Virus record (IMG/VR): IMGVR_UViG_3300032246_000826 | Coordinates: 1-38,141 of that record | Reading direction: 5' to 3' (one strand) | DNA length: 38,141 nt | From: a virus | Shown: positions 4,991 through 16,633 of the stretch, in pieces | How the letters are laid out: each line of letters opens with the position of its first letter | Numbering within the stretch: the stretch's first letter is position 1 | Program-made: the position numbers and the translations under genes | Notes under the pieces: generated by a model | Database searches by the model: none | What the model saw: only the letters and a program-made list of their open reading frames with translations | Told to the model about the DNA's origin: nothing

Positions 4991-6607
4991 TTAAAGAGTT
5001 TCTAAACCGTCAATTACTACTTTACCGTAGAATTCTGGTCTTACTAATTTCTTAGCGTAACGAGTCATAACTCCTCTTCTTGGAGTGAAGTTAGTTGGGT
5101 CGTACACTAATGGAGTCATAATCAATGGTACATAAGGTGCGTAAACTGCTCCGGTTTCGAAGAAGTTAGAACCTTTGAAGCCCATTAATAATACGTTCTC
5201 AGTCATATAAGGGTTTTTGTAAACATCGTATCTATTAGAGATTTGTCCGATATTTGTTACACCTGCTGCAAAAGTCAATGCATCTTTTCCTGGGTTAGCA
5301 GAGAAACCATTCATTGATTCTAAGATAGTTGCAACGTTAGGAGAAACTACTACGAAGTTTGCACCACCTCTCATTGTTAATTGGTGAATTTTATTAGATA
5401 CCTTTTGTAATTTGATACCTAAAGTCTGGAACCAAGTGCTCTTTTGGTATGCACTTGCTGCAGCTGCGTTAGCGTCGATAGAGAATCCGTTTCCGTTCCA
5501 ATCGTATCCAACTTTTGCTGACCAGTATTCAGTTGTGAAAGCGTTTTGTTGTAACATTTCTAAGATTTCTAAATCGATTTCTAAAGAGATGTACTCACTT
5601 AACATTTGAGTCAATTCAGCTTCTGCATCTACAGAGTGATATGCGTTCAAATCTTGTGCCAATTCAGGAGTCCAAATTGCTTTTAACTTACGAGTCTTAG
5701 CAACGATTGGTTCTGATTTCAATTCTAATTCGATTTCTGGAATAGCCAAATCACGACCTCTATCTTCAAAATCACCTCTTAATGCAGCTGTTGGCTGAGT
5801 ATGGTAATATAAAGTTGAGAAGTTAGAACCTGCAGAACCTGTACCAGTTACAGTTGAAACGAATTCAACATTGTTACCATTCTTAGTAGTGTACTGAGGA
5901 AACATTGTATAAGCAGAAGTTGAAGAAGACAATGCTAATTCAAATGCTCTAATACCAGCGAAATCAGCATCACCAGGTAATGCAATAGTTACTTTTTTCA
6001 AAGTGTTAGCTGCAAATGAAGCAGAAACAGTAGAGTTAGATAAATCCCAATCAAAATCAGCTAAAGATGCTGATGCAACAGTTGCATTAGAAGCTGAAGT
6101 AGCGTTGTTGATTGTGTATCCAAAACGTCCTGCACCATACAAGCCACCTGCTGTATCTTGTGTAGAACCTAATTTGTTACCTGATGGAGATAAAGAATCT
6201 TTACCAAAAGTTCCACCATTACCGAACAAAGAAGAACCTGTAAAATCAGGATTACCCGCTGGGTTTGAACCATATTTAAAGTCCATGTAGAAAATAAGAC
6301 CTGAAGGTAAGTTCATTGGTTGAACCGAAACGAATTCTTTCGCTGCAATAGAACCGAAGATACGTCTTACCAATGGTAATGCTACACCTGCCCACTCTTC
6401 AGAACCTGCTGAAGTACCAGTACGAGTTGCCTCATCTAATAATTGTTTTGCTTGGTTTTCTAACATTACTGCCATACCATGCTTAGTTGTTTCAGAACCT
6501 GCGTTCTCTAACAAACCTGTTTTTTCCCACTTAGCTTTCAAACCTCTTGTTTGCTCTAACATAAGAGTCTGAGGATTTGCGCCAGTCATTAATTTTTTTA
6601 AGTCCAT
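4991..6607 (-). CDS. gp23: Major capsid protein (T4 gp23 family)
   Basis: 538 residues, close to T4 gp23 (521). Diagnostic segments are LPLVRRIFGSIAAKEFVSVQ followed by PMNLPSGLIFYMDFKYG (about residues 75-112), and the later helical stretch TPELAQDLNAYHSVDAEAEL with LSEYISLEIDLEIL. A Ser/Ala/Thr-rich region (about residues 150-260) replaces the T4 insertion region and may form a surface domain. An LLE sequence at residues 32-34 fits the (L/I)xE prohead-protease signature, so the mature protein may lack the first 34 residues. The gene follows the gp22 scaffold and precedes a strong terminator. The leader is A-rich without a Shine-Dalgarno sequence. Confidence 0.95.
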   Translation of the reverse strand: MDLKKLMTGANPQTLMLEQTRGLKAKWEKTGLLENAGSETTKHGMAVMLENQAKQLLDEATRTGTSAGSEEWAGVALPLVRRIFGSIAAKEFVSVQPMNLPSGLIFYMDFKYGSNPAGNPDFTGSSLFGNGGTFGKDSLSPSGNKLGSTQDTAGGLYGAGRFGYTINNATSASNATVASASLADFDWDLSNSTVSASFAANTLKKVTIALPGDADFAGIRAFELALSSSTSAYTMFPQYTTKNGNNVEFVSTVTGTGSAGSNFSTLYYHTQPTAALRGDFEDRGRDLAIPEIELELKSEPIVAKTRKLKAIWTPELAQDLNAYHSVDAEAELTQMLSEYISLEIDLEILEMLQQNAFTTEYWSAKVGYDWNGNGFSIDANAAAASAYQKSTWFQTLGIKLQKVSNKIHQLTMRGGANFVVVSPNVATILESMNGFSANPGKDALTFAAGVTNIGQISNRYDVYKNPYMTENVLLMGFKGSNFFETGAVYAPYVPLIMTPLVYDPTNFTPRRGVMTRYAKKLVRPEFYGKVVIDGLETL

Positions 6608-6640: not shown

Positions 6641-7954
6641 TTATTTAATTATACCTGCTAATTTTTTAAATCTGTCAGAGAAGTTTGTAGATTCAGCAAT
6701 TACTTGCTTAGTTACAGCTGGCTTAGTAGATTTTGTTACTTTGCTAGCGATTCCTTCAGAAATAGATTTTTTAGTAGATTTGTTAGATATTGAATATTTG
6801 AAATTCTCTGCTAATGTAGAGTAAACCAATTTCACTTCTCTAACTGAATTTGTTCTATCCAAAGTTTCGATAACTTTAACTTTCTGTTCGTTAGTCATGT
6901 TATGAGCTCTGAATAATTTGTTTGCGAATAATAACTTAGCGTTTAATAAGTTTACTTCGTTGATAGTTTTTTGTAATGATTTGATAGTGTTGTAAGCTTC
7001 ATTAAGTTCTTTTTCTTTTTCTTCTTCTTCAGCTTCATCCATTTTCTCATCATCACCTTTCATATCAGCTTCCATTTCTCTTAAAATTTCTTCTAAGTCA
7101 ATTACCTTTTCACCATCCGTATCAGTACCAGCTTCGGCACCATCGGTATAGTTTTCTTTTTTTACTGATTTTTTTGCTTCATAAGTTGCTGATTTTTCTT
7201 CTTCAGAATCTTCACCTTCTAATTCAGCTAATTGTCTTTTCAATTCTGCAATTTTTTCTGCATCAGGATTTTCTTCTGGAGCTTCATCAGCTTCTTCCAT
7301 TTCATCTTCACCACCATCTAATTGAGCTTCTAACTCTCTGATGATAGCTTCCAAATCCATGTCATCTTCGTTATCTGAATCCATATCGCTTTCACCACCT
7401 GCATTGTCTGCATCCGGCTCAGCATGGTCACCACCCATTCCTGCGAAAGGGTCGTTGTTATCAGCTCCCATAGATGCATCAGGCATTGCGTTATGGTCAG
7501 ACTCTTCTGAATCTTCACCTTCCAATTCTGCCAATCTAGCTTTCAATTCTGCAATTTCTGCATCTTTGTCATCTTCCTTATCAGCAAAAGGATTTTCTTC
7601 TTCTGAAATATCTGCTACTTTTTTGTAGTCAGTTCCAGCTTGTTCTGGTTTACCACTATCCTTAGTTACACCTACTGATAAATCAGTGTCTGCATCTAAA
7701 GTTGGTTGTGCACCAGGTGTTTCAGCTGCATCAACTCCTACTTTAGAGCCAATACCATCTGAACTTAATTCCTCATCTACTTTGTCAACATCCATATCCT
7801 CTGCTTCAGCTTCTGCTCTCATCTTTTGAGATAACATAGATTGAAGTCTAGGAGTAAATGCCTCTTCAAGAGCGAGTTTTGCGTTTGCTAATGCTGTTTC
7901 CTTTACGGCTTTAGCATCGGCGATTGCTTCTTTCAATAATTTTGAATTTGCCAT
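6641..7954 (-). CDS. gp22: Prohead core scaffold protein (gp22-like)
   Basis: 437 residues, very acidic. The C-terminal part (about residues 330-385: LLNAKLLFANKLFRAHNM, then NEQKVKVIETLDRTNSV) matches the conserved end of T4-like gp22 scaffolds. The middle is an imperfect tandem duplication. Unit 1 (residues 133-225) and unit 2 (234-310) each start with an IAELK..LAELEGEDSEE block and end with a DLE-I-RE-E helix and acidic tail. Many LxE sites would allow gp21 to degrade the core during maturation. Unusually for this window the start has a TAAGGA Shine-Dalgarno sequence nine bases upstream (7964-7969), and a 195-base leader separates it from the bS21 gene. Confidence 0.85.
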   Translation of the reverse strand: MANSKLLKEAIADAKAVKETALANAKLALEEAFTPRLQSMLSQKMRAEAEAEDMDVDKVDEELSSDGIGSKVGVDAAETPGAQPTLDADTDLSVGVTKDSGKPEQAGTDYKKVADISEEENPFADKEDDKDAEIAELKARLAELEGEDSEESDHNAMPDASMGADNNDPFAGMGGDHAEPDADNAGGESDMDSDNEDDMDLEAIIRELEAQLDGGEDEMEEADEAPEENPDAEKIAELKRQLAELEGEDSEEEKSATYEAKKSVKKENYTDGAEAGTDTDGEKVIDLEEILREMEADMKGDDEKMDEAEEEEKEKELNEAYNTIKSLQKTINEVNLLNAKLLFANKLFRAHNMTNEQKVKVIETLDRTNSVREVKLVYSTLAENFKYSISNKSTKKSISEGIASKVTKSTKPAVTKQVIAESTNFSDRFKKLAGIIK

Positions 7955-7963
7955 CTTGTTTTT

Positions 7964-7969
7964 TCCTTA
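7964..7969 (-). promoter_or_regulatory. Shine-Dalgarno TAAGGA before the scaffold gene
   Basis: Minus-strand TAAGGA, nine bases before the ATG at 7954, is complementary to the conserved 3' end of 16S rRNA (TCCTTA). Nearly all other starts in the window have only A/T-rich leaders. It lies in the leader that directly follows the phage bS21 gene. Confidence 0.5.
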
Positions 7970-8078
7970 AATTTGTTTGTGAAGTTATTCTCTTGGGAAC
8001 TCCAATGTAATTATGATGATTGTTCGGTCACACCTTATAGAGAAGGGTATTCATTAATCAACTATTGTCTTAAAAGTA

Positions 8079-8096
8079 ATCCCATATGAATGGGAT
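8079..8096 (-). terminator. Hairpin, possible weak terminator after bS21
   Basis: ATCCCAT and ATGGGAT form a perfect 7-bp stem with a 4-base loop. On the minus strand it is followed by TACTTTTAAG, a broken T-run. It lies 54 bases after the bS21 stop. The stem has only three G-C pairs and the T-run is imperfect, so it may attenuate rather than stop transcription, or be a protein- or processing-related structure. Confidence 0.4.
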
Positions 8097-8149
8097 ATTT
8101 GATAATAAGTATGTAAATTTTTTAGAAAACTAAAGAAAATGTATATAAA

Positions 8150-8329
8150 TTATAAAAAATATTTATTTTTTCTTTTAGCTTCTTCCTTTTGTAACCGCTT
8201 TTTAACTGATTTTTTTATAAATTCTTTTCGTTCTCTCAGTTCTTCTACTTGCTTTAATTTTTGAATTTTGCGTTTATATTCTTTTAAAGCCGATTCTATA
8301 TTTCCGTTTTTGATATCAACTATCAACAT
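8150..8329 (-). CDS. rpsU: Ribosomal protein bS21 homologue, Bacteroidetes type (phage-encoded)
   Basis: 59 codons, ATG at 8329-8327 and TAA at 8152-8150. The start follows the upstream TAA after three bases, so coupling is likely. The protein begins MLIVDIKNGNIESALKEYKR, then has VEELRERKEFIKKSVKKRLQ, and ends KRKNKYFL. This matches the bS21 layout: an N-terminal beta strand, N-I-x-x-ALK-x-YKRK, then LRxRxxFIKxSVxKR and a basic helical tail. The MLI..IK.G.NI start and FIK-SV spacing are like Bacteroidetes bS21 rather than Escherichia coli bS21. bS21 sits beside the 3' end of 16S rRNA on the 30S platform and affects initiation. By my ungapped alignment the Tyr that shields the anti-Shine-Dalgarno in Flavobacterium bS21 (Tyr54) aligns with Arg53 here. 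Family call confident; functional consequence inferred. Confidence 0.85.
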   Translation of the reverse strand: MLIVDIKNGNIESALKEYKRKIQKLKQVEELRERKEFIKKSVKKRLQKEEAKRKNKYFL

Positions 8330-8332
8330 ATA

Positions 8333-8626
8333 TTAACCTAATGCGTTTTCTAATGCTCTTTCATATTTAGCTTCGATTCTATCTAAGAAATCTTTAGCTT
8401 TAGATAAATTATTTTGATTAGCTTTTAAATTAACTAATGCTTTTTGCCTATCTTCTTCAGTTTTTGCACCAAAATATGGTTTTGTTAAATCCTTTTGTCT
8501 ATCTGATAAAGTTTGGTATTTAGCCAATGCTTCTAAATATTCTTTAGCTATTGGATTAAATGCTTTAACTTCTCTCTGAGAAGGTCCTTCTACTTCTTGT
8601 AGTGGTATAAGATTTACTAATTTCAT
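8333..8626 (-). CDS. Small head-locus protein with MKLVNLIP start
   Basis: 97 residues, predicted helical, Lys/Ala/Glu-rich with coiled-coil character from about residue 25 to the end. The N-terminus MKLVNLIPLQEVE matches an internal segment (MKLINLIPGKDIKE) of the Cys-rich protein at 13901-14992. In both a short amphipathic stretch ends with an (L/I)xE sequence, the gp21-type cleavage signature. It may be a prohead-core or internal head protein targeted by this segment. That is inference, since T4 internal proteins also use short cleaved N-termini. It is followed three bases later by the bS21 start. Confidence 0.6.
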   Translation of the reverse strand: MKLVNLIPLQEVEGPSQREVKAFNPIAKEYLEALAKYQTLSDRQKDLTKPYFGAKTEEDRQKALVNLKANQNNLSKAKDFLDRIEAKYERALENALG

Positions 8627-8627
8627 A

Positions 8628-8999
8628 TTATTGTAAATTTACTAATTTATATTTCGTTGAATATAATAATTCGGAAATATTATCTATTTGGTTTTGAATC
8701 CAACTATCTTGTAATTTTTTGTCTTGTCTTAATTTTTCCAATGCTACACATAATTTTTCAAAATATGCAATTATGTTTTTAATATCACAATTGGTATCTA
8801 AACCATTTACAGGTTGAAATTTAATTAAACCATATTTTCCTTGATATGATTCTACTAAACCATCTATTAAACCAACAATTTCGTCATAATATGTATTTAA
8901 TGCAGAATGTGCTGCAAACGCTCCTGGGCCTTTTACTCCTAAATGAAATACATGTGCCTGTGTTCTACTATGAAAAAATAAAGATGCTAATTGTTCCAT
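8628..8999 (-). CDS. DUF5856-like helical protein of T4-like phages
   Basis: 123 residues. The N-terminal half has a helical pattern with regularly spaced His, Asp and Glu residues: AHVFHLGVKGPGAFAAHSAL, then YYDEIVGLIDGLVESYQG. This resembles a family of small conserved T4-like phage proteins (DUF5856, from memory). It also recalls the Dps/ferritin helix A-B pattern (H-x-x-x-x-KG-x-x-x-x-x-H then a D-x-x-x-x-x-D-x-x-x-E helix), although it is shorter than Dps. The function is unknown. Position between gp21 and gp22 suggests a head or late-assembly role. A ferritin-like fold is a structural guess from residue spacing only. Confidence 0.6.
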   Translation of the reverse strand: MEQLASLFFHSRTQAHVFHLGVKGPGAFAAHSALNTYYDEIVGLIDGLVESYQGKYGLIKFQPVNGLDTNCDIKNIIAYFEKLCVALEKLRQDKKLQDSWIQNQIDNISELLYSTKYKLVNLQ

Positions 9000-9424: not shown

Positions 9425-10015
9425 TTAATTTAATTCAATTATAATTTCTCTCATCAAATCTTGTGAACGACACCACTTACCACATTCCTCTGCTATTTTT
9501 GCCCATTGCTTTGATTCTTGCAATGGTGCCATAAATGCTCCATGTGTTGATGGATTGGATACAAAATCCCATCCAACTAATTCAAAGTCTTCCTGAACCA
9601 TTACAGTTCCGTCTGATAGCTCTTTTACTGAACCTAACCCTCTTGATGAAATTCCTAAACGAATATTATTTTTTAATAATTCTTTTAAAATATTTCCAGA
9701 TGGAGTTGAAAGTATTTCTACTACGCCACATACATCATCCCCTTCCCAATAAATTTCTCTAATATTATGAGAAACATTCTTTAGGTTGATAACGGGAGAA
9801 TCTGGATGGTCTAATTCACCTAATGCTCTTCTTTCTTTAATAAGTTGTTCGTATTTTTTACACTCTCTTTCTAATATTCCTTTAGGATATCTTCTATGAT
9901 TTTGATTTGGAGCACCTGCTCTTTGTAGGATTCCCTTAACTAAATAAGTTCCATTTTCTTCTTGCTGGAGTTTTGCTTCAAACAAATGCGTTTCTATCAA
10001 TAATCCTTTATTCAT
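9425..10015 (-). CDS. gp21: Prohead maturation protease (T4 gp21 family)
   Basis: 196 residues, about the size of T4 gp21 (212). It has the family order: NHRRYPKGILERE near residue 39, GELDHPDSPVINLKNVSH with candidate catalytic His70, GISSRGLGS with Ser123/124, and WDFVSNPSTHGAF with Asp150. These fit the serine-type assemblin-like fold of phage prohead proteases. It should cleave scaffold, capsid and internal proteins after (L/I)xE once the prohead is built. It overlaps the upstream gene by one base. Sites matching its specificity appear in gp23 (LLE34) and in the 1293-residue protein. Confidence 0.93.
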   Translation of the reverse strand: MNKGLLIETHLFEAKLQQEENGTYLVKGILQRAGAPNQNHRRYPKGILERECKKYEQLIKERRALGELDHPDSPVINLKNVSHNIREIYWEGDDVCGVVEILSTPSGNILKELLKNNIRLGISSRGLGSVKELSDGTVMVQEDFELVGWDFVSNPSTHGAFMAPLQESKQWAKIAEECGKWCRSQDLMREIIIELN

Positions 10016-12096: not shown

Positions 12097-13848
12097 CTAC
12101 TTTTTATTTATATCTTCTGTCAAAATTCTCTTTTTACCACCTTTCATATCCTTAAATATCTCTTGGTAATTTGTTCTTGGTCTGTATTTTACTGAATCTT
12201 CTTTTTGTTTAAGGGTTTTAATACCCAATGGGTCACGTCCCTGTGGATGGTCGTCTTTACCATATCTAATAGGGTCTTTAGGTCTACCAACTTTACCTTC
12301 TTCTTCTAATTCAGTTTTTAATCTATCCAATTCTTCTTCTACATTTGTAGGTTCTTCAGTTCCTGTTTCTTTAGCAGGGTCTACACCTTGTGTTTCAATT
12401 GATGTTAAACGGAATGTTTGCTTAGTATCATCTAATACTTGTAATGTCATCGTATCTTGTTCATCTTTAGCCATTTTCATTACTGCTTCGTACATCCACT
12501 CTTTTGAAAACATTTTAGTTTGTTGCATTTGTTGAATTAATGCTACTTTAGAAGTGTATAATTCAACTTGCTCTTGTTCATAGATTTTAGATGGAATAGT
12601 TAATTCTAGTGAAAAATTAGTTAATCTATCATCATCAATACCTTGTGCATATAAATGTACAATTGCAATTTTAGTTAATTCTGAAATAATTACTCTTTGA
12701 ACTCTTTCAATTGTTTTTGCAAAACGGATATCCATTGCTGCCAATGTTGCTTTACCATTGGTATCTTCTTCATATCCTAAATAAGCTTTTGGTATTTTTA
12801 AAGATGCCATCATTTTACCTTTTAAGTAATTGATATCATCAATCATATTATATTCTAAACCTTTTAGAGTATCAATTGAAGTACCATTATCATTACCACG
12901 AACTGGCATATAATAATCTTCAATAAGGTTTTGCATATTGTACTTTAAGTTATACTCACCCGTTCTTTCATCAACAAAAGGAACTTTTTTAGATGAGTTA
13001 ATAATCTTTTGCATGTAGTTATCCACTTCGTTTGGTGGAATGTTACCAACATCAACTTTAAAGATTCTCTTTTCAGGTGCTCTCATTACTCTATGGATTA
13101 ACATTGCATCTTCCATCAACATTAATTGTTTCCAAACTCTCCTTGCACCTTCTATCATTGATTTACCATATGGTAAGAAGTTTGAATCTGAATTTAAACG
13201 GAAGTGAGCCATCTCATAGTTTTCAAATTCTTTTTTTGGACTCATACCATATGCTCCTAATGGGTTTTGGTATGGTGCATAAATAAATTTAACTCGTTGA
13301 GGATTATCTATATCAAATCCTTCAACTCTACTAACTTCATATGTTGATAATGGCATTATATTTACAATACCAATACCTTCTTCTGCTGATATTTCTAATT
13401 GTAAAAAGAAATCACCATATTTAACCAAGTTTCTTGTCCAAGGCCATAAATTGAATTCTACATTAAGAATATCGTAAAATAAATTTTCTAAAATTTGTTT
13501 GATGTTATCATCTTCGTGATGGATTTTTAATACATTACCCATTTCGTTTCTTGCAGTTGCTTCATCTGCATATACATCCAATGCTGATGCTAAAATCGGG
13601 TCGGTATCCATTGAATCATAATCTCTAAACAAGTCAATTCTAACTTGCTGATATGCCATCGATGATTCTAATTGGCCTGTTCCATAATTGGTTACTTTTA
13701 ATTTCATAAAACGGTCTACTAAGTTAGTAGTCATATTTTGATACTCATCGGTATCAATGACTTTAACTCCATCTGCTGTTTTACGAACTATGGTATTTGT
13801 TGAAAATAATTTTTGTAACCTACCTAATATTGATTTATCTGCTGCCAT
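12097..13848 (-). CDS. gp20: Portal vertex protein (T4 gp20 family)
   Basis: 583 residues (T4 gp20 is 524). Recognisable gp20 features are RIDLFRDYDSMDTDPILASA followed by LDVYADEATARNE (about residues 72-104), the NLVKYGDFFLQLEI strand, a MIEGARRVWKQLMLMEDAML helix, RAPEKRIFKVDVGNIP, and the LKGLEYNMIDDINYLKGKMM and KIPKAYLGYEED stretches. The extended C-terminus (about residues 495-583) is charged and basic. It forms the dodecameric vertex through which TerL packages DNA. Order TerL, Cys-rich protein, portal, core genes, protease, scaffold, capsid is the expected T4-like arrangement. Confidence 0.95.
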   Translation of the reverse strand: MAADKSILGRLQKLFSTNTIVRKTADGVKVIDTDEYQNMTTNLVDRFMKLKVTNYGTGQLESSMAYQQVRIDLFRDYDSMDTDPILASALDVYADEATARNEMGNVLKIHHEDDNIKQILENLFYDILNVEFNLWPWTRNLVKYGDFFLQLEISAEEGIGIVNIMPLSTYEVSRVEGFDIDNPQRVKFIYAPYQNPLGAYGMSPKKEFENYEMAHFRLNSDSNFLPYGKSMIEGARRVWKQLMLMEDAMLIHRVMRAPEKRIFKVDVGNIPPNEVDNYMQKIINSSKKVPFVDERTGEYNLKYNMQNLIEDYYMPVRGNDNGTSIDTLKGLEYNMIDDINYLKGKMMASLKIPKAYLGYEEDTNGKATLAAMDIRFAKTIERVQRVIISELTKIAIVHLYAQGIDDDRLTNFSLELTIPSKIYEQEQVELYTSKVALIQQMQQTKMFSKEWMYEAVMKMAKDEQDTMTLQVLDDTKQTFRLTSIETQGVDPAKETGTEEPTNVEEELDRLKTELEEEGKVGRPKDPIRYGKDDHPQGRDPLGIKTLKQKEDSVKYRPRTNYQEIFKDMKGGKKRILTEDINKK

Positions 13849-15025: not shown

Positions 15026-16633
15026 TTACTTTAGCAACCAAGTTAAGTTTTCAATCTCACCTTTACCTAATTCCATTTCATATGGGTTCTTATTTAAATA
15101 GCCGGTTGATACGAATCCTTTATACTGATTTATCTGAGAAGCGTTTAACATGCTTTTAGTTAAATCAATTCCTTCTTGTCTTAAACGAAGTGCTGTATTA
15201 CGAACCCAAAGTCCAATTGCTAATGCCATTGTAAGGTCATCATTATAACCCTTCATAGCTTCAGCCCTACCACTATTCCAAATAAATGTAAATAACTCAT
15301 CTATGAGTCTTTGTGAACGAATTAAGATATCTTTATCGGTCATATATGTATCTAATGCTGATATGATAAGAGGTCGGGTTTTAGATGTTGTAGAAAATCC
15401 TGCAACCATTTGCTTTTCATCTCTATAAAATTTATTACTCATTTGTTTCTCCGTATCAATATATTTTAAATCATTACTCATATAGAATAGATTTTGATAT
15501 CCTCTATTAATAATTTGTTGAATACATGCCCAACCTACGTTTGAGTTTTCCACAACTAATAGGGCGTTATTATATTCGGTTGCCAATGAATTTAAAAAAT
15601 TTCCAAAATCTTTTGTATCAATTTTACCTCTATACTCAGCTACTTGCGATGAATCTTCGATATCAATTACTTGTGCAGTAGAATAATCGGCTCCATCTCC
15701 ACGGGCAACGTCAGCACATACCATATATTGTCTATTGTAATTTGGATGTTCCCAAACCCAAAGGTTACTATCAAATCCTCTTTTTTCGACCGGCTCCATA
15801 ACATAGGTATCTTTATACCAAGTCAATAATGCCGGGTCTATTACGGTATCACCTGAACCAATAAAGTCACAATCACATTCTTGTGCTGCTCCTTTGACTC
15901 CTAAAATACGAGTTTGTTCATCTCTCCATGCTTGATTTCTTTCAGGATGTTTTGTCCAATGTAAATTGATACAATTAAATCCATTTGCACCACTTTCACC
16001 TGCTACCCAAGTTTTATGAAAGAAATTACCCACACCATTTGGAGTAGATAATACGATTGCAGCTCCACCCGTTGATAGAGTAGATTGTGCTGATAACCAA
16101 ATTTCATCGATATCTCTAATGAATGCAGCCTCATCCACTACTAATAGGGATAGGGCTTCCGAACGTCCTGCATCGGGAGAAGATGCAATTGCTTTCACCT
16201 GTGAACCATTTTTTAATTTAAGAGAAAGTTTGTTATCTTCAACGGATGAACTCCCACCATCTCTTAACCATACTGGTAATAAATCGTGCATTACTCTTAC
16301 TTTCTCCACTAAGTTTTTTGCTACTGTTACTTTTGTTGCAATTACCAATGCGTTAAAGTCCTGATTAAATAACATTTTCCAAAGAATAAATCCCGCAGAT
16401 AAAGTCGATAAACCCAACTGACGGGATTTAAGGATAATGTTAAAACGATTATCTTTAAAGTCCGTTAAGCAATCTTCCTGGAAAGGATAAAGGTGAAAGG
16501 GTATTTTTCCTCTCACCGGATGTTGAATAACACAATACTTTTTCATAAAGTAAATGGGGTCAGCCCCACATTTACGATACTCTTCAGCTATTATTTCTTT
16601 TAAAGACTTCTTAGGTTGCCCTTGAACTGCCAT
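15026..16633 (-). CDS. terL: Terminase large subunit (T4 gp17 family)
   Basis: 535 residues. The N-terminal ATPase has KSRQLGLST at 69-77, a deviant Walker A whose Lys lies at the front and where the usual GKT Lys is Leu, as in lambda-type terminases. Walker B with catalytic Glu is LLVVDEAAF (Asp167-Glu168), and the coupling motif is LSTPNG (195-200). The C-terminal nuclease has CADVARGDGADYS (Asp308, Asp316), a VVENSNVGW strand and GYNDDLTMALAIG (Asp465-Asp466), the RNase H-fold metal ligands. It packages DNA through the portal encoded downstream. The start follows the upstream gene with a one-base overlap and an A-rich leader. Confidence 0.95.
   Translation of the reverse strand: MAVQGQPKKSLKEIIAEEYRKCGADPIYFMKKYCVIQHPVRGKIPFHLYPFQEDCLTDFKDNRFNIILKSRQLGLSTLSAGFILWKMLFNQDFNALVIATKVTVAKNLVEKVRVMHDLLPVWLRDGGSSSVEDNKLSLKLKNGSQVKAIASSPDAGRSEALSLLVVDEAAFIRDIDEIWLSAQSTLSTGGAAIVLSTPNGVGNFFHKTWVAGESGANGFNCINLHWTKHPERNQAWRDEQTRILGVKGAAQECDCDFIGSGDTVIDPALLTWYKDTYVMEPVEKRGFDSNLWVWEHPNYNRQYMVCADVARGDGADYSTAQVIDIEDSSQVAEYRGKIDTKDFGNFLNSLATEYNNALLVVENSNVGWACIQQIINRGYQNLFYMSNDLKYIDTEKQMSNKFYRDEKQMVAGFSTTSKTRPLIISALDTYMTDKDILIRSQRLIDELFTFIWNSGRAEAMKGYNDDLTMALAIGLWVRNTALRLRQEGIDLTKSMLNASQINQYKGFVSTGYLNKNPYEMELGKGEIENLTWLLK

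Follow-up and report, generated by a model that had tools for sequence, protein, structure and literature searches.

Gene content of the head cassette

The window analyzed here is the whole of IMG/VR virus contig IMGVR_UViG_3300032246_000826, a stretch of 38,141 bases, and it carries a T4-like head cassette on its minus strand. The cassette comprises the terminase large subunit (15026..16633), a portal protein of the T4 gp20 type (12097..13848), a prohead serine protease S77 of the T4 gp21 type (9425..10015), two small genes encoding a DUF5856 protein related to T4-type rI.-1 (8628..8999) and an unassigned 97-aa protein directly upstream of bS21 (8333..8626), the 59-aa ribosomal protein bS21 (8150..8329, ATG start), a presumed prohead scaffold of 437 aa (6641..7954), and the gp23-type major capsid protein (4991..6607). 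Between the bS21 stop and the presumed scaffold start lies a 195-nt non-coding leader (7955..8149). The terminase, gp20 portal, S77 protease and gp23-type capsid found around bS21 bear out an earlier reading made from the sequence alone (the sequence-only reading), which had placed the gene in a head cassette.

A PHROGs search with the very acidic product of 6641..7954 returned no family match, and it is presumed to be the scaffold from its position, its composition and its similarity to the genes at the same place in Flavobacterium phage immuto and Microcystis phage Mel-JY01. The immuto protein that resembles it, immuto35A_203 (L045), is annotated as a ‘DNA polymerase phi-like protein’; its position and this similarity suggest that it is a prohead scaffold. 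Among related cassettes with enough upstream sequence, the bS21 slot was filled in 77 of 95 and empty in 18, so bS21 is dispensable in this slot; in nine long or short contigs lacking it there, none was found elsewhere in the contig sequence examined.

Identity and relatives of the bS21 gene

The sequence-only reading had proposed that the 59-codon frame encodes a bS21 of Bacteroidetes type, and both parts of that proposal held. The frame, exactly 8150..8329, gave a match to Ribosomal_S21 (PF01165) of 46.1 bits (E 4e-12, cut-off 27) over nearly the full length of the profile (positions 2-54 of 55), and a family search over the whole record recovered it again (E 3.8e-13). Its closest solved homologue was Flavobacterium johnsoniae bS21 (7jil, E 3e-9), with which it shares the fold family, the core sequence and 46% identity, and outside its own phage lineage it resembled the host proteins of Bacteroidia more closely than any other bS21. 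The first viral scan returned 22 loci at 57-92% identity, relatives proved common among viral contigs, and the core bS21 residues are kept in the window's clade; for 60 relatives of the same length the median pairwise dN/dS was ~0.14 over 1005 non-independent pairs. The 22 viral loci together with this ratio exclude a chance open reading frame, and the gene is confirmed as a true bS21 under purifying selection. The first scan of genome contigs with the window protein gave no confirmed relative.

Two records classed as viral, L024 and L048, contain a host-like rpsU with an apparent XerC-type recombinase gene after it and could derive from a host, and records of this kind can inflate bS21 counts in viral sets. 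In addition, two or three bS21 matches each were present in the cellular Bacteroidota genomes G146, G116, G226, G131, G065, G168, and G187, a hint that hosts also hold bS21 paralogues.

The presence of bS21 in this phage cassette and the idea that it replaces the host protein are already known (Chen 2022; McNutt 2023). In freshwater Bacteroidetes myophages, bS21 was described in the head cassette and expressed with late structural genes, and replacement of host bS21 was proposed and mimicry argued (Chen 2022, PMC9723584); speculation on such an exchange was also made by McNutt 2023 (PMC9976891). Like those myophages, the window carries a small basic bS21, with its nearest host relatives among Bacteroidetes, in a reverse-strand cassette with terminase, portal, protease/scaffold and capsid. 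Pelagiphage HTVC008M, which belongs with another host phylum, encodes a bS21 as well, and the HTVC008M protein was shown to enter ribosomes of E. coli (Mizuno 2019, PMC6375957).

Microcystis phage Mel-JY01 (PP395634) also holds bS21 in the same protease-scaffold/capsid slot, with a capsid and a terminase each 54% identical to those of the window, but its bS21 is divergent and its genes, unlike those of the window, carry Shine-Dalgarno (SD) sites (7 of 19, 1.1 expected), which served as the positive control for our SD test. By capsid and terminase this reported Microcystis phage (L046) is close kin of the Bacteroidota-type phages studied here; the kinship, the shared bS21 slot and the SD use imply that the phage family may span phyla.

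Residue at the Tyr54 column

Bacteroidia ribosomes keep the anti-SD hidden in a pocket, with Tyr54 of bS21 as a key contact. We aligned 306 distinct bS21s with MAFFT (166 viral and 140 from cellular Bacteroidota), alongside a smaller MAFFT alignment of 8 sequences; the F. johnsoniae query sequence matches 7jil over residues 1-52 and also has genome matches at 98% identity. Arg53 of the window fell at the Tyr54 column in both alignments, so the residue that stacks on A1534 in Bacteroidia-type shielding is Arg here, as the sequence-only reading had claimed from an ungapped comparison. All 13 representatives examined from the clade of the window have the Arg. A related protein from locus L254 reads NKAKYKNKNIL where the window reads EEAKRKNKYFL, a Tyr/Arg swap with kept flanks and no indel, which rules out an alignment artefact: no gap puts Tyr57 of the window at the shielding position, and alignment to Bacteroidetes bS21 did not restore a Tyr there. 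Compared with F. johnsoniae bS21, the window protein thus lacks Tyr54, and it also has a one-residue gap near position 10 and a shorter C-terminus.

Among the distinct viral sequences, the Tyr54 column held Arg in 83, Tyr in 80, Lys in 2 and His in 1, and among those of cellular Bacteroidota, Tyr in 119, Arg in 19 and His in 2, counts that mirror sampling and not natural frequencies. All phage bS21s of Chen 2022 were stated to carry an aromatic residue near the C-terminus, at the Tyr54 position (Tyr54 in 54 of 61, another in 7 of 61; PMC9723584), whereas the nearest aromatic in the window is Tyr57, four residues on from Arg53; the published set may itself hold Arg-type proteins with a later aromatic aligned at that column. 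What is new here, as judged from the alignments, is a large viral lineage with Arg at the Tyr54 column, set against that statement of a universal aromatic. In a weak tree of 64 columns, the phage Arg group was separate from the cellular Arg group, the cellular clade having support of 98/97.

The Tyr at 57 noted by the sequence-only reading is present in the window, but it is not kept as Tyr among Arg-type relatives, in which the residue four positions after the Arg was L in 40, K in 13, F in 13, Y in 11, R in 4 and H in 1. An aromatic residue did occur somewhere in the short tail after the Arg in 81 of the 83 distinct Arg-type viral bS21s, differing in position and kind and missing from two, and shielding may for that reason be intact. 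AlphaFold2 modeling of the protein alone (mean pLDDT 72) predicted a C-terminal helix at residues 40-58 with Arg53 and Tyr57 one turn apart; such a model shows the shared helix and cannot place the 16S tail. In seven related phages (L433, L436, L463, L467, L469, L495, and L514), the bS21 with Arg at the Tyr54 column also has a C-terminus lengthened by a long basic stretch (e.g., ...GEYNKGKKNKK).

Shine-Dalgarno use and the extended SD

The sequence-only reading went on to propose that this protein, if it replaces host bS21, could reprogram host ribosomes toward SD-bearing messages, and on this point the genomes gave it no support. A GGAG motif preceded only 1 of ~40 late genes of the window, in an upstream stretch that overlaps coding sequence, and no clear genome-wide SD signal was seen across the 1121 genes of long contigs of Arg-type phages (33 genes with SD, 26 at a control position and 16.5 in shuffles; 8 of 464 vs. 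8 when restricted to intergenic starts). Long contigs of Tyr-type phages gave 19 of 1160 genes vs. 26 at the control position. Each open reading frame was assumed to start at its first ATG, which blurs SD signals without removing them. An early excess on locus pieces (5.5% vs. 1.5% expected for Arg-type, 2.1% vs. 1.4% for Tyr-type) was rejected as a general signal because many of the hits reflected overlap with coding sequence at conserved gene ends or belonged to one gene, and because over the long contigs the excess vanished at intergenic starts. That these phages combine an Arg-type bS21 with SD-less genes speaks against translation being redirected to SD messages in general. In cellular Bacteroidota, sampled at 20 kb per genome, SD sites preceded 34 of 202 genes in 13 Arg-type genomes (11.3 expected) and 2 of 107 genes in 7 Tyr-type genomes (2.0 expected).

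A conserved SD of moderate strength was limited to the presumed scaffold gene, the neighbor of bS21, and it tracks bS21 loosely. In the window it is an SD-like AAGGA (7964..7968, minus strand) before the scaffold ATG, and many relatives have AAGGAG. Counting distinct cassettes, AAGGAG or AAGGAA preceded the scaffold gene in 67 of 86 Arg-type cassettes, 6 of 16 without bS21 and 1 of 2 Tyr-type, and the median pairing was -7.4 kcal/mol in Arg-type cassettes vs. -1.6 in those without bS21 (-5.1 in the window). We rejected the apparent link to bS21 (Fisher p 0.002), since on a quick tree of the scaffold the SD and bS21 each changed repeatedly and with no consistent association: the SD was kept after bS21 loss (e.g., L460, L486, L482) and was lost despite an Arg-type bS21 (L232/L246/L248, L255-L264, L479/L485/L506). 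This sole conserved SD thus occurs also in cassettes with no bS21 in the slot and, in L254, alongside a Tyr54-type protein, a further point against reprogramming.

The F. johnsoniae rpsU gene is autoregulated through an extended SD, for which a pairing of -13 kcal/mol is typical (McNutt 2023, PMC9976891). We found pairing between rpsU and the 16S tail at or below this value in 58 of 83 Tyr-type hosts (median -18.1 kcal/mol) and 12 of 18 Arg-type hosts, vs. 1 of 125 phage bS21 starts (0 of 71 Tyr-type and 1 of 54 Arg-type). The window gene, at about -3.1 kcal/mol, has no extended SD, a further difference from F. johnsoniae. Phage bS21 genes without strong 16S-tail pairing are not built to obey host bS21 autoregulation, and this missing element is the firmest new mechanistic clue of the present analysis.

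A structured leader RNA before the scaffold gene

Within the leader, positions 7956..8069 of the minus strand form a conserved structured RNA with three helices, P1 (8062-8056/8021-8015), P2 (8048-8043/8036-8030) and P3 (8004-7998/7986-7980). The gap between bS21 and scaffold spans 172-199 nt in relatives and holds the same RNA. In 27 diverse sequences, pairing in the three hand-drawn helices reached 98.1%, and 9 of the 20 base pairs had changed in a compensatory manner; none of 500 shuffles equaled the observed signal, sliding the partner strand destroyed it, and RNAalifold alone gave a nearly identical structure. A short hairpin upstream of this RNA (ATCCCAT/ATGGGAT, 8079..8096, minus strand), whose arms covary across relatives by eye, was left out of the covariance model.

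Four long Arg-type genomes each gave a single match to the covariance model. Weak matches lay ahead of the scaffold gene in Mel-JY01 (E 0.004) and in L273 (E 0.018), and long Tyr-type contigs yielded none that was convincing. The RNA is widespread in viral contigs, with at least 119 stretches (e.g., L293:16161-16276, L303, L311, L317, and L046:7765-7873). No Rfam family reached its gathering score, and a literature search brought up no relevant account of a leader RNA for a phage scaffold gene. A link between the RNA and bS21 was rejected because the RNA is also present in related phages without bS21; by its distribution the leader is tied to the scaffold gene and not to bS21, and control of scaffold translation would be the natural guess for its role.

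Host of the phage

The Bacteroidetes-type promoter TTTG-N17-21-TAnnTTTG occurred upstream of genes 15 times vs. ~0.5 expected in five long contigs of Arg-type phages (3, 3, 0, 1, and 8 per contig vs. ~0.1 expected each), and a search of the window itself gave none. Judged by terminase and capsid, the closest relatives in culture were Flavobacterium phage immuto and Microcystis phage Mel-JY01, and the Arg-type phage profile scored best with MLI-type Tyr54 hosts. The relatives' promoters, the SD-less starts and the kinship with immuto make a Bacteroidia host likely. A T4-type late-promoter-like motif, TATTTATA, was also strongly enriched within 120 nt upstream of genes in G003-G007 and the window (in G004, 29 vs. 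2.4 expected).

Proposed mechanism and alternative explanations

Taken as a whole, these data are best explained, in our estimation with somewhat better than even confidence, by a replacement bS21 that is free of host autoregulation and may loosen the anti-SD shield, in phages that generally leave SD messages unexploited. The protein would be expressed with the late head genes, as in the myophages of Chen 2022, and could take the place of bS21 on newly made host 30S subunits, by analogy with the pelagiphage protein in E. coli ribosomes (Mizuno 2019). With no extended SD on its gene to couple it, as rpsU is coupled, to bS21-free ribosomes, it would be made regardless of host autoregulation and could out-supply the host copy; by filling bS21-free 30S subunits it would, we infer, also deprive host rpsU of the ribosomes that translate it. 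The Y54A change alone raised translation of an SD reporter in F. johnsoniae (McNutt 2023, PMC9976891), and by that analogy the shielding should be loosened but not lost when Arg stands in for Tyr54. Such weakening is plausible, although the substitute here is Arg instead of Ala and nearly all Arg-type phage proteins keep an aromatic nearby. The loosened shield would not be generally exploited through SD messages, the phage genes starting without SD as those of Bacteroidia do.

A possible but rather doubtful alternative is that the protein is a functional mimic, in which the Arg or the downstream aromatic still holds the 16S tail and the phage gains only more supply or an evasion of host control. 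The aromatic retained in 81 of 83 sequences, the single helical turn predicted between Arg53 and Tyr57, the SD-less state of Arg-type phages, the mostly SD-less mRNAs of Chlorobia, which have no Y54 (McNutt 2023), and the mimicry argued by Chen 2022 are all consistent with it, but Tyr54 is described as uniquely conserved in Bacteroidia and its change to Ala sufficed to raise SD-reporter output (McNutt 2023), the later aromatic is not fixed in place or type and two sequences have none, and an SD excess marks the 13 Arg-type cellular genomes and not the 7 Tyr-type ones. We regard it as unlikely that the Arg is just an ordinary inherited feature, the hosts being non-Bacteroidia Bacteroidota that already have an Arg bS21: although 19 of 140 distinct cellular bS21s do carry Arg, these form their own clade apart from the phage Arg group (in a tree of 64 columns only), Arg-type hosts use SD moderately and the phages do not, the phage profile agrees best with Tyr54 hosts, and, of the cultured relatives known to infect Bacteroidota, Flavobacterium phage immuto is the nearest.

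The narrower form of the sequence-only model, in which an Arg-type bS21 frees the anti-SD and so favors the presumed scaffold message 195 nt downstream, seems improbable to us. It accords with the more frequent and stronger scaffold SD in Arg-type cassettes than in those without bS21, but the scaffold tree uncouples the two traits in both directions, L254 has the SD together with a Tyr54-type protein, and scaffold pairing (-5.1 kcal/mol in the window) is much weaker than the -13 kcal/mol of autoregulated rpsU. Slightly less probable still, and at best a long shot, is a two-part specialized ribosome built by the phage, in which a bS21 without Tyr54 would free the Bacteroidia anti-SD and the scaffold leader with its SD would be favored.

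Under the replacement reading that we prefer, the uniform lack of an extended SD suggests a simple route by which phage bS21 may escape host autoregulation. The leader RNA may prove to be a new RNA regulator of phage head assembly. Furthermore, the Arg lineage corrects the published impression that every phage copy of bS21 has the aromatic, and, with strong purifying selection on its bS21, it offers ready-made variants for testing the role of Tyr54.
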